The translations under genes were made by a program, and so were the position numbers. 64,000 bases of DNA from Desulforegula conservatrix Mb1Pa. Lineage in GTDB: Bacteria > Desulfobacterota > Desulfobacteria > Desulfobacterales > Desulforegulaceae. This document shows positions 46,047 to 57,272 of the stretch, in pieces; within the stretch, counting starts at the first letter, position 1, and each line of letters begins with the position of its first letter. The stretch covers positions 1 through 64,000 of the forward strand of contig NZ_AUEY01000017.1 in the NCBI RefSeq assembly GCF_000426225.1. The letters run 5' to 3'. The notes beneath the pieces are model-generated. The model worked only from the letters and a program-made list of their open reading frames with translations, was not told the DNA's origin and ran no database searches.

Positions 46047-48023
46047 TTATGCAGGGATAATTCTGTGGTAAGGAGCTTTTCTCATGGTCCACTCGTTGGT
46101 CTTCTTGTTGAAGGTCGAGTTAACAAAGCAGAACCAGTTTTCATCATCCTGACCCATGAAGTCAGTTCTGTAGTAGAAGCCAGGGAAGCGGCTTTCCTGA
46201 CGGAACAGGATGTGACGGCAATGTGCTTCTACAGTGTAGATACGATGGAAGATTTCCCAGCAACGCATAAGTTCATGAAGGTCGCCAGCTGCAAGGAATT
46301 CACAGTCTTCCTTCATCATCTGGAAAAGTTCCATAAGATGATCAAGAGCAGACTTGTTGGTCTGATAGTATGTAGCGACGCCAGCACCATATTCGTTGGT
46401 AGCTTTCATCATACGCATAGTCATACCAGCAGGTTTGCAGTACTTAGGGTTAACGTCTGCTGCAGTAGAGTAATCTTTGTGAGCAAACCAAGTCTTAACC
46501 GGTTTCCAAACCATGTCAGCTGCTTCCTGAGCTGTCATTTCTGGCTCTGGCTTGAAGTTTGGATGATCTTTTACCCACTTAACCATTACTTTACCAAGGA
46601 TACGGCCTTCAGCATGTGAACCTGAAGAGAACTTGTGACCTGAGCAGCCAACGCCGTCAGCAGCAGTGAAGAGACCCTTAACGGTGGTCATCTGCTTGTA
46701 AACCTTACCATTGTCGCCCCACTTGTAGTCTTCTGGAACCCAGTCTTCGTTTGGACCGGAAACCCAGATACCACAGCAGCCTGAGTGTGAACCCAGGAGG
46801 TACGGTTCGGTTGGCATGATTTCAGAGTCTTTCTTTTCTGGCTCGGTGTTAGTTGCGCACCAGAGGTTCGCCTGACCGCAAGTCATGTCAAGGAAGTCTT
46901 CCCAAGCTTCTGCTTCAAGATGCTTAAGTTCTTTCTTGTCCATGGTTTCACCAAGCTTCTGAAGAGCCTTGGAAGTAACCATCATGATTGGGCCACGACC
47001 TGCTTTCATTTCGAAAAGCATGAGGTGGTTACGGAGACAGGTAGGAGTGATCGGAGCTGTTCCGTATGGAGCATATTTTGCAAGTTCGTCTTTAGAAGAC
47101 TGAGCAGTTGCATAGTTTTCGCCCATGGAGTTTTCAAGGTGAGCCTTGAAAAGAAGGAACCATGCACCAACAGGACCGTAACCATCTTTGAAACGGGCTG
47201 GGGTGAAACGGTTTTCCATCATGGAAAGCTCTGCACCAGCGCGAAGAGCCATGGTGTAGGTAGAACCAGCATTCCATACTGGGTACCATGCACGGCCTTT
47301 ACCTTCACCAACTGAACGTGGCTGGTAAATGTTAACCGCACCACCGCAAGCTACCATTACTGCGTTAGCCTTGATGTAGTATACTTTGTTTTCACGGGTA
47401 GAGAAACCAACCGCACCAGCGATTCTGTTTGGCTCATTCTTGTCGTTGAGGAGTTCAACGATGAATACGCGCTCAAGGATGTTCTCTTCGCCAAGAGCTT
47501 TCTTTGCTGCTTCAGCAACGATTCTCTTGTAAGACTCACCATTGATCATGATCTGCCATTTACCGGTACGAACTGGCTTAGCACCTGCCTTGAGAGTGCC
47601 GAGCTTAAGGCCCTGCTTACCATCAAGGTTCTTGTTTGCTTCGTCTTTTTTCCAGATTGGGAGTCCCCATTCTTCGAAAAGATGAACAGAGTCATCAACG
47701 TGACGGCCAAGGTCGAAAATAAGGTCTTCGCGAACGATACCCATAAGGTCGTTACGAACCATACGTACGTAGTCGTCGATTGCGTTGTCACCAATGAAGG
47801 TGTTGATAGCGGAAAGGCCCTGAGCAACAGCGCCTGATCTTTCCATAGCAGCTTTGTCAACAAGAAGGATCTTCGTGTTGTCATCTGCCCATTTCTTTAT
47901 TTCAAAAGCAGTACCGCAAGCTGCCATACCGCCGCCGACGATGAGTACGTCAACTTCTTTTTCAACTATTTCAGGAGCCTCAATACACTTGAGTTCGCCT
48001 TGTGCCTTGTTTGGTAAAGCCAT
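46047..48023 (-). CDS. aprA: Adenylylsulfate reductase, alpha subunit
   Basis: 658 residues, close to the usual size. FAD fold: VDVLIVGGGMAACGTAFEI; GAVAQGLSAINTF; a WYPVWNAGSTYTMALRAGAE segment; SRFPGFYYRTDFMGQDDENW near the C-terminus. It reduces APS to sulfite and AMP, with electrons from AprB, in the cytoplasm. Codon choice is strongly biased to GGT, GCT, AAC and CGT, as in sat. The stop is 31 bases before the aprA-qmoA hairpin. Confidence 0.98.
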   Translation of the reverse strand: MALPNKAQGELKCIEAPEIVEKEVDVLIVGGGMAACGTAFEIKKWADDNTKILLVDKAAMERSGAVAQGLSAINTFIGDNAIDDYVRMVRNDLMGIVREDLIFDLGRHVDDSVHLFEEWGLPIWKKDEANKNLDGKQGLKLGTLKAGAKPVRTGKWQIMINGESYKRIVAEAAKKALGEENILERVFIVELLNDKNEPNRIAGAVGFSTRENKVYYIKANAVMVACGGAVNIYQPRSVGEGKGRAWYPVWNAGSTYTMALRAGAELSMMENRFTPARFKDGYGPVGAWFLLFKAHLENSMGENYATAQSSKDELAKYAPYGTAPITPTCLRNHLMLFEMKAGRGPIMMVTSKALQKLGETMDKKELKHLEAEAWEDFLDMTCGQANLWCATNTEPEKKDSEIMPTEPYLLGSHSGCCGIWVSGPNEDWVPEDYKWGDNGKVYKQMTTVKGLFTAADGVGCSGHKFSSGSHAEGRILGKVMVKWVKDHPNFKPEPEMTAQEAADMVWKPVKTWFAHKDYSTAADVNPKYCKPAGMTMRMMKATNEYGAGVATYYQTNKSALDHLMELFQMMKEDCEFLAAGDLHELMRCWEIFHRIYTVEAHCRHILFRQESRFPGFYYRTDFMGQDDENWFCFVNSTFNKKTNEWTMRKAPYHRIIPA

Positions 48024-48092
48024 TATATCCTCCTATGGATAGGAAAATTTTGTTTCAAGTTTATCCCAGACTAACAGTCAAGATTTTCCGGA

Positions 48093-48542
48093 CTATTTCT
48101 TCCAGACTGCTGGCTCTTTAGGAGCTGCAAGAGTAACGCCTTCTGCTTCTTCATTGAAAAGAAGTTCGCTTTCGAGATCCTTGCCTTTTGCGCCAAGGTA
48201 TGCGTTAGCTGAACCTTCAGAAGTGGTTCTGATTGGGAACTTGAAGCGTTTGATAACGCCATTACGGAACTTACAGGTCCACATGATGTCTTCAGTACCC
48301 ATCATTGGAACAAGGTCGGAACCCATTGGTACGAAGTCTGAGTATCCACGTACACCGATCGCCTGGTTTGGACAAATTTTAATGCAGGAAAAACACTCCC
48401 AGCATGCATCTGGCTCCTGATTGTAAGCCTTCATGGCTGTTGGATCAAGAACCATAAGGTCGTTGGGGCAAATGTACATGCATGCAGTTTTTTCTCCGCC
48501 TTTGCAGCCGTCACATTTTTCTGCAATTACAAAACTTGGCAT
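48093..48542 (-). CDS. aprB: Adenylylsulfate reductase, beta subunit
   Basis: 149 residues. Ferredoxin-like domain with two 4Fe-4S motifs, the first interrupted as in AprB (CDGCKGGEKTACMYICP) and the second CWECFSCIKICPNQAIGVRG, then the C-terminal tail that wraps around AprA. It transfers electrons to AprA. AGGGAGG lies before the ATG. First gene of aprBA-qmoABC, behind a long leader. Confidence 0.97.
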   Translation of the reverse strand: MPSFVIAEKCDGCKGGEKTACMYICPNDLMVLDPTAMKAYNQEPDACWECFSCIKICPNQAIGVRGYSDFVPMGSDLVPMMGTEDIMWTCKFRNGVIKRFKFPIRTTSEGSANAYLGAKGKDLESELLFNEEAEGVTLAAPKEPAVWKK

Positions 48543-53426: not shown

Positions 53427-53720
53427 TTATTGGATCAAGAAATGATTCTCAAGGATGAGCTTTCTGAAATTTTCGGAAACAGAATTAAAATCAACAACAT
53501 CTATCATAATAGGCAGATCTGATTCTGAAAAAGCATCCTTAAGCCTTTCAACTATTCTCCAGTCTATTTTTCCATTAGAAACCAAAGCAAGATCAAGATC
53601 GGAAAATTTTTGTGGTCTGCCGTTTACCCTCGATCCAAAAGCCCAAACACTATATTCTGGTATTGTCTCAGAGAGAATACGCTTAATCAGGTCAAACTGT
53701 AGATTGTCAATATCAATCAT
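53427..53720 (-). CDS. MNT-type minimal nucleotidyltransferase (antitoxin of HEPN/MNT pair)
   Basis: 97 residues. The pol-beta fold signature is AFGSRVNGRPQKFSDLDLAL, giving GSxxxG...DxD. Minimal nucleotidyltransferases of this type act as antitoxin for a HEPN partner, in studied cases by adenylylating it. Its start overlaps the end of the HEPN gene by 8 bases, so the pair is translationally coupled. Confidence 0.9.
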   Translation of the reverse strand: MIDIDNLQFDLIKRILSETIPEYSVWAFGSRVNGRPQKFSDLDLALVSNGKIDWRIVERLKDAFSESDLPIMIDVVDFNSVSENFRKLILENHFLIQ

Positions 53721-54138
53721 TTGCCTTTTCCAGCCTATTTAACAACACTCCCGCATCTTTTATGAATTTCAAGGCAATGACATATACTTCTTCGGCTATA
53801 CTTTCACTATAAGTATGCGAGGTCAGGTTTCTTGCGTCTCCATAAACAAACCAGGGAGCAGGGTCATCAATCAGCCCGTATCTTGCAGCCATGCGGAAAA
53901 GATCCTTCCTCGTCCTTGGATGATCAGAGTCTTCGGGACTTATGTTCGCCCTGATCCACCTCTGCAAAAACTTCCAGCACAATTCATATGTAAACTCAAA
54001 ATTCTGAATCACGCCCGCCTTGAGACCAAATCTTGTGACATCGTCAAGACCTGACATGAATTCCTCGTCGGATGTTTTTGCCACCAAAGCTTCAAATGAA
54101 TTCAATGCTTTTCTATAACTCTCCAGATCCAGATTCAT
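53713..54138 (-). CDS. HEPN-domain protein, HI0074/nucleotidyltransferase-substrate-binding family (toxin of the pair)
   Basis: 141 residues, all-helical, matching the HI0074 family: QNFEFTYELCWKFLQRWI near residue 45, RKDLFRMAARYGLI, and ARNLTSHTYSESIAEEVY with the RxxxxH motif. In the larger HEPN superfamily this motif is the RNase active site, so an RNA-cleaving toxin is plausible, though for HI0074 members this is less tested. It shares an ATGA overlap with the upstream membrane-protein gene and is followed by its MNT partner. Confidence 0.9.
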   Translation of the reverse strand: MNLDLESYRKALNSFEALVAKTSDEEFMSGLDDVTRFGLKAGVIQNFEFTYELCWKFLQRWIRANISPEDSDHPRTRKDLFRMAARYGLIDDPAPWFVYGDARNLTSHTYSESIAEEVYVIALKFIKDAGVLLNRLEKAND

Positions 54139-54563
54139 TTCTTTTCCTTTATTTCCTTTGCCTGCCTAAGAATATCGCCATAATGCTCTTCTGTACACTC
54201 AGGACAAAGGCTGTGGGAAAAAACTGCTTCTGAGTGTTCAGTGATGTATTTTTCAAGCTGAATCCATTCCTTCTCAACCCTTATTTTCTTGCAAAAGGAG
54301 CAAACAGGTAGAAAACCCTCAAGATGCTTTAATTTCTTTAAGGTGTGGTTTGTCATTCTGAGGACAAATATGCCGAGTATAAAAATGCAAGTACTCTCAA
54401 ACAGACTTTCCTGCCAGTTAATCGGGGTTTTTCTAGCACCAAGAAAAAAATAAGGAATATCGACAAGTTCATCAAGCCAGATAATCAGCATTACAATTGC
54501 AAAGCCAGCCGCCTCATAACCCAGAATAATCTTCTGCAAGTTGTTTTTCATATGTCCCCGCAT
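54135..54563 (-). CDS. Two-helix membrane protein with C-terminal four-cysteine motif
   Basis: 142 residues. Two membrane helices (about IILGYEAAGFAIVMLIIWLD and SLFESTCIFILGIFVLRMTN) are followed by GFLPVCSFCKKIRVEKEWIQ and SHSLCPECTEEHYG. This is the same GFLPxCSxCKKIR...CPxC unit as in the PAS protein at 31097-31669. The motif is likely a zinc or redox site facing the cytoplasm. A Met at 54551 is an alternative start. Its stop overlaps the HEPN start, so it may belong functionally to that pair. Confidence 0.8.
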   Translation of the reverse strand: MRGHMKNNLQKIILGYEAAGFAIVMLIIWLDELVDIPYFFLGARKTPINWQESLFESTCIFILGIFVLRMTNHTLKKLKHLEGFLPVCSFCKKIRVEKEWIQLEKYITEHSEAVFSHSLCPECTEEHYGDILRQAKEIKEKK

Positions 54564-54586
54564 TGTAATTTTGATGAGAGCTTGAA

Positions 54587-54608
54587 GCAGGGCAATGAAC
54601 AGCCCTGC
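54587..54608 (-). other. Hairpin after the selenoprotein gene
   Basis: GCAGGGC (54587-54593) and GCCCTGC (54602-54608), a perfect 7-bp stem just after the selenoprotein stop codon on the minus strand. No T run follows; a possible transcript end or stabiliser. Confidence 0.5.
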
Positions 54609-54619
54609 ATTGAGACAAT

Positions 54620-54958
54620 TTATTTAAGGAGCTGTTTGATCTTTTCGTATAATTCCGTGCTGTGTCCGATGAAATATTCCTCACCGATCCTGATTGTAGG
54701 AGCCCTCAGATTTCCGCTCGGCCCGATGGACGCTGCCATCACTTCATCCTTGTTTTCAGGCTTGAATTCAAGATTCTTTTTGCCTTTGGCAGCATTAATT
54801 ATCGAGGCTTTCTGAAGAATTTCCCACGCCTGTTCAGCCTCAATTTTTTCTTTCCCAGCATCAACTGTTTTTTCGATTTCAATACCTGCAAGGTCCGCCT
54901 GGGCCTTTATGCAGGTTTTTCATCCTTTCCTCAGATACGCCCAGTCAATTTTTTTCAT
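54620..54958 (-). CDS. ArsC-like thioredoxin-fold selenoprotein (UGA = Sec at codon 13)
   Basis: Reading through one TGA gives 112 residues starting MKKIDWAYLRKG, then Sec13 at 54922-54920, then KTCIKAQADLAGIEIEKTVD and ending YEKIKQLLK-stop. The U-x-x-C (Sec13-Lys-Thr-Cys16) replaces a CxxC redox motif, and SIGPSGNLRAPTIRIGEEYF near residue 77 is the ArsC/Spx-like cis-Pro and end of the fold. This is the pattern of the ArsC-family (seleno)proteins known in anaerobic Deltaproteobacteria; the substrate is not known, and arsenate reduction is not implied. AGGGAG at 54970-54965 lies 6 bases before the ATG. A SECIS-like hairpin follows the TGA. The alternative, a pseudogene with a nonsense mutation, is unlikely because the frame and family match are intact on both sides. 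Confidence 0.88.
54884..54916 (-). promoter_or_regulatory. Bacterial SECIS hairpin of the selenoprotein mRNA
   Basis: It begins 3 bases after the TGA. ACCTGCA (54916-54910) pairs perfectly with TGCAGGT (54890-54884); an inner AGG (54906-54904) pairs with CCT (54893-54891), leaving the loop CCCAGGCGGA with a G at 20 bases from the TGA. Stem, loop G and spacing are as expected for SelB recognition. Confidence 0.8.
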
Positions 54959-54985
54959 GGTCGACTCCCTATACGTATTATATCA

Positions 54986-55198
54986 TTATGCATACATCAG
55001 ACGGCGGCCTTTAGGTTCAGGAATATGATCCCCGAATTCACGGGCAGTATCAATCCACAACTGAATTGCATCTTTTATGTTTTTTAAAGCCTGTTCTTCA
55101 GTTTCTCCGTGAGCCATACATCCGGACAATTCAGGAACTTCAGCCACAAAGACCTGATCTTCGTTGCTCCAGTAGATTATAATCTCATACTTTTGCAT
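54986..55198 (-). CDS. hicB: HicB-family antitoxin
   Basis: 70 residues: YEIIIYWSNEDQVFVAEVPE, then LSGCMAHGETEEQALKNIKD, the partially degraded RNase-H-like fold of short HicB proteins. It lacks a separate DNA-binding domain. It neutralises the HicA toxin encoded immediately upstream in the same transcript; GGAGGAG precedes the ATG. Confidence 0.92.
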   Translation of the reverse strand: MQKYEIIIYWSNEDQVFVAEVPELSGCMAHGETEEQALKNIKDAIQLWIDTAREFGDHIPEPKGRRLMYA

Positions 55199-55453
55199 CT
55201 AAAGTTCTCCTCCCAGCTTATATTTTAGCAATACCGACCTCACCTGCCTGACCTGATAGGCTTTTGCCTTGCATCCATCTTTCTGAAGATTAATTTTTTC
55301 TTCCACATCCTCTCTTCTGAAAATATGATGGCTTCCGCGCTGGCGTTCTTCAAAACCCAACCTGATCAGAAGATGGATTATATCATCAAAAACAATATTT
55401 GAATCTGATGTTCCTCTTAAAATCTGAAAAAGCAATTTTTCATATTTGCCCAT
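55199..55453 (-). CDS. hicA: HicA-family toxin
   Basis: 84 residues from the Met at 55453. The dsRBD-like fold, with LIRLGFEERQRGSHHIFRRE containing the active-site His of HicA mRNA-interferase toxins (GSHH). An earlier in-frame start at 55501 would lie inside ubiD; GGGGAG gives good spacing to 55453. Toxin before antitoxin is the normal HicAB order. Its start overlaps the ubiD-like gene's end by 14 bases. Confidence 0.9.
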   Translation of the reverse strand: MGKYEKLLFQILRGTSDSNIVFDDIIHLLIRLGFEERQRGSHHIFRREDVEEKINLQKDGCKAKAYQVRQVRSVLLKYKLGGEL

Positions 55454-57272
55454 ACAGACTCCCCGACTTTTTCCCCAGCAAATCAACCCTTGCTGAAACA
55501 TCGGGATCTTCGATCAGAGGCGGAGCATGATGGGGCTTGAGCCTCGCATCAATTATAAGCGGACCACGGCATTCCCAATGTTTATGCCTTATAAACTCTC
55601 CGGCCCCATATACATCATGGGACGGGTTGGATCTTGTAAATACTGCCCACAGGAAATTATTGATATTTTTTGACACAAAAACGCTGTCGTCCGCAATTAT
55701 AAAAAGAGGATAGCCTTCAGGACTACCTGCTTTATCAAGAAAATCCGCAAAAGCCTTTGCATCCTTTTCACCCTGAAGCGCATTAATGAATTTCGGGCCA
55801 TTCACGACTATAACTCCTGGCATGGCTGTTCTCGGTTCTGAAAAACCCTCAGGCAGTTTAAGATCTCCTTTTATCTCATTGCAAAGTTTCCTTTTAGGAT
55901 TCCCTGCCACTGCGATTATCATCTTAGACCCTTTATTAAGACCTTCACCTGAATAATCGAGAGTGTCGATGGTGGTAGCAGTCTGAAAATGGCAGTCAGT
56001 TTCAAAATTGACTCGCTCGAGCATGTGAACAAAAAAAGCCTGAATATCATGAATGTCGAGCATAGGTGAATCCTCGCCCGCAATTATGAAAAGATATTTT
56101 GCAAGAGAGCAGTGGCCAAATCCTAAAATGGCATTTGCGAGAGTCAGAAGCTCCATGGGTTTTCTTGACTGATAAGGAACATATCTTTCAGACCCTATGG
56201 CAAGAAGAAGAGGATGCACACCTGACGCGTCAACAGCGTGAAGAGCCTTAACTCCTGGGATTGCCGATGGTGTGACTGGCGCTGTTATCTCATGAATCAG
56301 CTCTCCAAAAACAGAATCCTCCTGGGGAGGCCGACCAACAACAGTGAAAGGCCACACAGCGTCTTTTCTGTGATAGACAGATTCGACATTCAGAAAGGGA
56401 AATTCATGAACAAGACTGTAATATCCAAGATGATCACCGAACGGGCCTTCTGGCTTTGTCCTTTCAGGATCGATTGTGCCTGTGATGCAAAAATCAGCGT
56501 CGAGTGAAATCACATGGCCATTTTTTCTGGCATACCTGAATCTTCTACCAGCCAGCACTCCGGCAAAAACAGCCTCCGGAACTCCTTCGGGTAGAGGCAT
56601 GACAGCTCCCAGAGTATGGGCTGGCGGCCCGCCCACAAATATGCTTACTTTAAGCTTTTCTCCTTTTTCAACCGCCTTTGAATGATGGATTCCGATATCC
56701 CTTCTTATCTGGTAATGCAGTCCGATCTCTTTATCCTGGGCATAATCATTTCCTGAGAGCTGAATTCTGTACATGCCCATATTTGAAGCAAATATGCTGT
56801 TTTTGTATGGGTCTTCCGAATAGACCTGGGGAAGAAGAACAAAAGCCCCTCCGTCCATTGGCCAGCATTTTATCTGGGGGATATCTGAAATCCTGCATTT
56901 GGAGAAAAGAGCGGCTCCGTCATCCATTTTTCTTGGAATAGCCGAAATCATGGCAAATGGGACTGGCGCATATCTGAAAGGATTTTTCATGAAGCGCGAA
57001 GGATCGCCCTTAAGCTCCATGATTTTTTTCACATTTTTCAAGGTTGATCTGAAAATGAATCTCGCCCTGTCCATTGTTCCGAAGAGATTGGACACGGCAG
57101 GAAATGGCGAGCCTTTTACCCTTTCAAAGAAAACAGCTGGCCCTTTTTTCTCAAAAATCCGTCTGTGGATCTCTGCCATTTCAAGATTGGGGTCAACCTC
57201 TTCCTTCACTCGGACAAGATGGCCATTTTTTTCAAGATCAATTACGCATTCTGAAAGACTGGAATATATCAT
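55440..57272 (-). CDS. UbiD-family decarboxylase
   Basis: 610 residues of the large UbiD type (UbiD itself is about 490). RRDIGIHHSKAVEKGEKLKV, LPEGVPEAVFAGVLAGRRFR, KPEGPFGDHLGYYSLVHEFP (E-x-P-F-G-D-H) and an E(I)HE-like ELIHEITAPV segment are prFMN/metal-binding regions. These enzymes decarboxylate aromatic or unsaturated acids with prenylated FMN, for example in menaquinone synthesis. The longer C-terminal part resembles menaquinone-type members, but the substrate is not readable. No UbiX-like flavin prenyltransferase is adjacent. First gene of a unit with hicAB and the selenoprotein gene following. Confidence 0.88.
   Translation of the reverse strand: MIYSSLSECVIDLEKNGHLVRVKEEVDPNLEMAEIHRRIFEKKGPAVFFERVKGSPFPAVSNLFGTMDRARFIFRSTLKNVKKIMELKGDPSRFMKNPFRYAPVPFAMISAIPRKMDDGAALFSKCRISDIPQIKCWPMDGGAFVLLPQVYSEDPYKNSIFASNMGMYRIQLSGNDYAQDKEIGLHYQIRRDIGIHHSKAVEKGEKLKVSIFVGGPPAHTLGAVMPLPEGVPEAVFAGVLAGRRFRYARKNGHVISLDADFCITGTIDPERTKPEGPFGDHLGYYSLVHEFPFLNVESVYHRKDAVWPFTVVGRPPQEDSVFGELIHEITAPVTPSAIPGVKALHAVDASGVHPLLLAIGSERYVPYQSRKPMELLTLANAILGFGHCSLAKYLFIIAGEDSPMLDIHDIQAFFVHMLERVNFETDCHFQTATTIDTLDYSGEGLNKGSKMIIAVAGNPKRKLCNEIKGDLKLPEGFSEPRTAMPGVIVVNGPKFINALQGEKDAKAFADFLDKAGSPEGYPLFIIADDSVFVSKNINNFLWAVFTRSNPSHDVYGAGEFIRHKHWECRGPLIIDARLKPHHAPPLIEDPDVSARVDLLGKKSGSLYGQI

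Follow-up and report, generated by a model that had tools for sequence, protein, structure and literature searches.

The minus-strand reading frame set out in Table 1 is a real gene in the window (the whole 64,000-nucleotide stretch of DNA that was analysed), and belongs to a protein family with a conserved Sec/Cys site. It is almost certainly functional, encoding a selenoprotein of NCBIfam family NF041106, with an ArsC/Spx-like thioredoxin fold, in which UGA codon 13 is decoded as selenocysteine and which most likely acts as a selenol oxidoreductase. The gene escapes only those ORF callers that take every TGA for a stop; current annotation models recognize the family.

Reading frame and family membership

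The first-pass annotation had described a 113-codon frame broken by a single TGA at codon 13, preceded by a good ribosome-binding site and lying in a gap of about 420 bases under plain ORF calling. Translation with TGA read as U confirmed the coordinates and gave 112 residues followed by a stop, with codon 13 (RKG-U-KTC) as the sole in-frame TGA. The product has the N-terminus MKKIDWAYLRKGUKTCIKAQADLAG and the C-terminus GNLRAPTIRIGEEYFIGHSTELYEKIKQLLK. The AGGGAG sequence lies 6 bases 5' of the ATG, and the flanking ORFs at 54563 and 54986 leave a gap of 422 bases.

Table 1. Features of the selenoprotein gene, in window coordinates
Feature	Position	Strand	Basis
ArsC-like selenoprotein gene (ATG at 54958, TAA ending at 54620)	54620..54958	-	Translation with TGA as U; NF041106 score; 112 residues plus TAA stop
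Ribosome-binding site AGGGAG	54965..54970	-	Sequence
TGA codon 13, U of U-K-T-C, predicted to be read as selenocysteine	54920..54922	-	TGA in 60/66 and TGC in 5/66 homologous loci
TGC codon 16, putative partner (resolving) Cys of UxxC	54911..54913	-	Conserved in alignment A1
SECIS-like hairpin: 7-bp lower stem, short interrupted upper stem, loop AGGC	54884..54916	-	Fold energy; synonymous-codon shuffles

Against the NF041106 model ('ArsC family (seleno)protein') the U-readthrough product scored 106.8 bits over residues 4-104 and the full length of the model. This score is above the curated cut-off of 85 bits, and the first UxxC position, at which members have Sec or Cys, is Sec. A Pfam search of the product gave no match. 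The longest conventional ORFs across the stretch are on the plus strand (54345-54815 and 54662-55087) and might be taken for the real genes here. However, neither has a family hit in NCBIfam or Pfam, while the minus-strand reading is a clear NF041106 member, and we give the plus-strand ORFs practically no credence.

A search with the NF041106 model found matches above the cut-off in 9 of 96 genomes of relatives, 28 of 395 from the phylum and 50 of 389 from the order. Each of these matches holds exactly one internal TGA, save five that have none. Codon 13 was compared across 66 homologous loci (the window copy included, and with two or three loci under the NF041106 cut-off, L009, L060 and L061), which were fetched and aligned to the family profile with the residue at codon 13 left free. 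The codon is TGA in 60 loci and TGC in five, and the one other match is without its N-terminus. A TGA at the same codon in 60 of 66 loci is far beyond chance. The search for homologues with Cys or Sec at residue 13 proposed at first pass was therefore successful, as every homologue spanning codon 13 has one or the other.

The window copy shares with the family its length, the RKG-U-xxC motif, the GxxGNLRAP segment and the Sec/Cys site, but has KT inside UxxC, where xS is commoner, and a different hairpin variant. Plasmid and phage records were also searched and contained no relative.

Several variants were seen among the homologues. The five Cys forms (L062, L065, L070, L076 and L081) come from one genus, in which Sec forms are present too, and lack the SECIS stem. 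In four loci (L009, L014, L016 and L055) Ser or Thr replaces the second Cys (U-K-S-T, U-V-S-T, U-K-S-S and U-A-S-S, respectively) and Sec is kept; the selenol there must therefore pair with an outside thiol. More distant ArsC-like frames with UTTC, below the NF041106 cut-off, were found at L061 1501-1803, which has a strong 8-bp hairpin, and at L060 1501-1785. Weak TGA-bearing matches like these are present in other genomes too, and such frames are perhaps a second ArsC-like selenoprotein family.

The first-pass annotation had ranked the gene as the strongest overlooked candidate. The gene is real; its novelty did not hold, since it passes the NF041106 model and the family is already in the literature. 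Among the families in a survey of bacterial selenoproteins from 2006 (PMC1794560) is an 'ArsC-like' one, represented in Desulfotalea psychrophila and Desulfuromonas acetoxidans, and a 2026 review has the entry 'Arsenate reductase-like protein, NF041106, UxxC' (PMC13188914). The D. psychrophila and D. acetoxidans proteins, likened to the window protein by description only, are named as ArsC-like or distantly ArsC-homologous Sec proteins of anaerobic Deltaproteobacteria. The gene adds a further Sec protein to those of anaerobes, and is an example of how reading the raw sequence can recover a gene split by TGA-as-stop calling.

SECIS-like hairpin and selenocysteine machinery

The perfect 7-bp stem reported at first pass directly after the TGA (ACCUGCA/UGCAGGU) starts 3 nt past the UGA. 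The hairpin has a folding energy of -15.6 kcal/mol, giving a z-score of -2.7 against dinucleotide shuffles, 2 of 200 of which fold as well, and of -3.3 against synonymous-codon shuffles (protein kept, codons drawn from the family), none of 200 of which reach its energy. Numbered from the U of UGA, the loop of the best fold, AGGC, falls at bases 23-26; it lies 19 nt from the UGA and its second base is a G. Under published bSECIS rules the apical loop measures 3-9 nt, lies 16-37 nt from the UGA and has G in the first two places, the upper stem is 4-16 bp long and the energy is -7.5 or lower (PMC13188914, Fig. 2A). The window hairpin agrees with these rules save for one mismatch that interrupts the upper stem. 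An Rfam search of the 54620-54958 stretch gave chance matches only.

In most Sec homologues 5-8 base pairs form a stem that closes a loop of 3-5 bases near base 27 from the UGA, in either of two neighbouring registers, and G is found at base 27 in 41 of 50. A fixed-register stem test was too strict for homologues using two registers, and the later comparison allowed both. Measured against synonymous shuffles, the stem near base 27 had a mean z-score of +1.7 in the 50 Sec copies and -0.8 in the five stemless Cys copies, with kinship between copies ignored. The window copy is off the common register, with 4 base pairs near base 27 (p 0.56), although in strength its best fold ranks near the top of the set. 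A family-like alternative fold of the window copy, with loop CGGA, is 4.8 kcal/mol weaker than its best fold.

The genome (4.47 Mb, 96% complete) encodes selB (381 bits), selA (604), selD (366) and tRNA-Sec (77.6), all over their cut-offs, so that the search for selA, selB, selC and selD suggested at first pass found each component. ARAGORN confirmed the tRNA-Sec, with anticodon TCA. The selD gene itself carries an in-frame TGA within SASGUAAKI, a segment that we take to be where SelD proteins have their active-site Sec or Cys. The organism therefore depends on UGA for Sec in at least two of its genes.

It could be argued that the frame is a pseudogene of a Cys protein, in which TGC mutated to TGA and the hairpin is coincidental: the two codons are one C-to-A change apart, and Cys forms exist. 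However, 59 further loci, their frames otherwise open, also have TGA at this codon, the hairpin exceeds synonymous shuffles, and the Sec machinery is complete. A pseudogene is thus very improbable. Two outcomes had been named beforehand as telling against the selenoprotein reading, absence of selABCD from the genome and homologues with neither Cys nor Sec at codon 13; both proved otherwise. We infer that Sec is inserted in this organism, where SelB and Sec-tRNA(Sec) would decode UGA codon 13 under the guidance of the hairpin directly downstream.

Fold, proposed function and surroundings

A profile of 15 homologues searched against solved structures matched Spx with an E-value of 9e-11, and YffB and chains named ArsC with E-values of 1e-7 to 1e-6, the whole set lying between 9e-11 and 8e-7, in line with the fold first proposed for this UxxC protein. 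The alignment to Spx, YffB and ArsC spans nearly the full length, placing CxxC on UxxC and RRP on RAP. Residues Y8, U/C13, A19, R85, P87 and G98 are invariant in the 15-homologue alignment A1, and W6 is conserved. A structure model from the single sequence was poor (pLDDT 52). The profile matches speak for a thioredoxin fold of the ArsC/Spx branch, with UxxC as the active site. The window protein has in common with this branch (PDB 1z3e, 1rw1 and 2kok) the CxxC position, the R-x-P segment and a conserved G near the end. It differs in having Sec in place of the first Cys, and neither the RNA polymerase binding of Spx nor arsenate reduction is supported for it.

In the mechanism that we propose, Sec13 would be the reactive selenol and Cys16 the resolving thiol, with the conserved Arg85-x-Pro87 positioning Sec13. 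The protein would reduce a disulfide or other oxidized substrate and then be re-reduced by a cellular thiol. Stand-alone selenol oxidoreductase chemistry is most likely. A more specialized role than that of a general thiol oxidoreductase, either as a Sec-containing Spx-like redox sensor or as a reductase for an anaerobe-specific substrate, is unlikely.

We also consider it unlikely that the protein is a true arsenate reductase, in which Sec13 would attack arsenate like the catalytic Cys of the E. coli ArsC type. In its favour, the fold branch is the same, the family profile hits PDB chains that are named arsenate reductase, A1 shows no variation at R85, and some homologues do without Cys16. 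Nevertheless, Spx outscores the ArsC-named chains, and the neighbourhoods of 17 homologues contain no recurrent partner outside close relatives, arsenic-related or other. As its neighbours do not recur, the selenoprotein gene appears to stand alone, in a context that points to no substrate.

The gene is flanked directly upstream by HicB-like antitoxin and HicA-like toxin genes (54986-55501, minus strand). On its other side is a 142-residue ORF (54135-54563, minus strand) with hydrophobic stretches towards its N-terminus, the two CxxC pairs CSFC and CPEC, and no family match, followed by an MntA-like nucleotidyltransferase and HI0074 substrate-binding pair (53427-54138, minus strand) in an HEPN/MNT-like toxin-antitoxin arrangement. 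Farther away, at 46047-48542 on the minus strand, are two genes that we take to resemble the adenylylsulfate reductase subunits AprA and AprB, a pair that would point to a sulfate-reducing organism.
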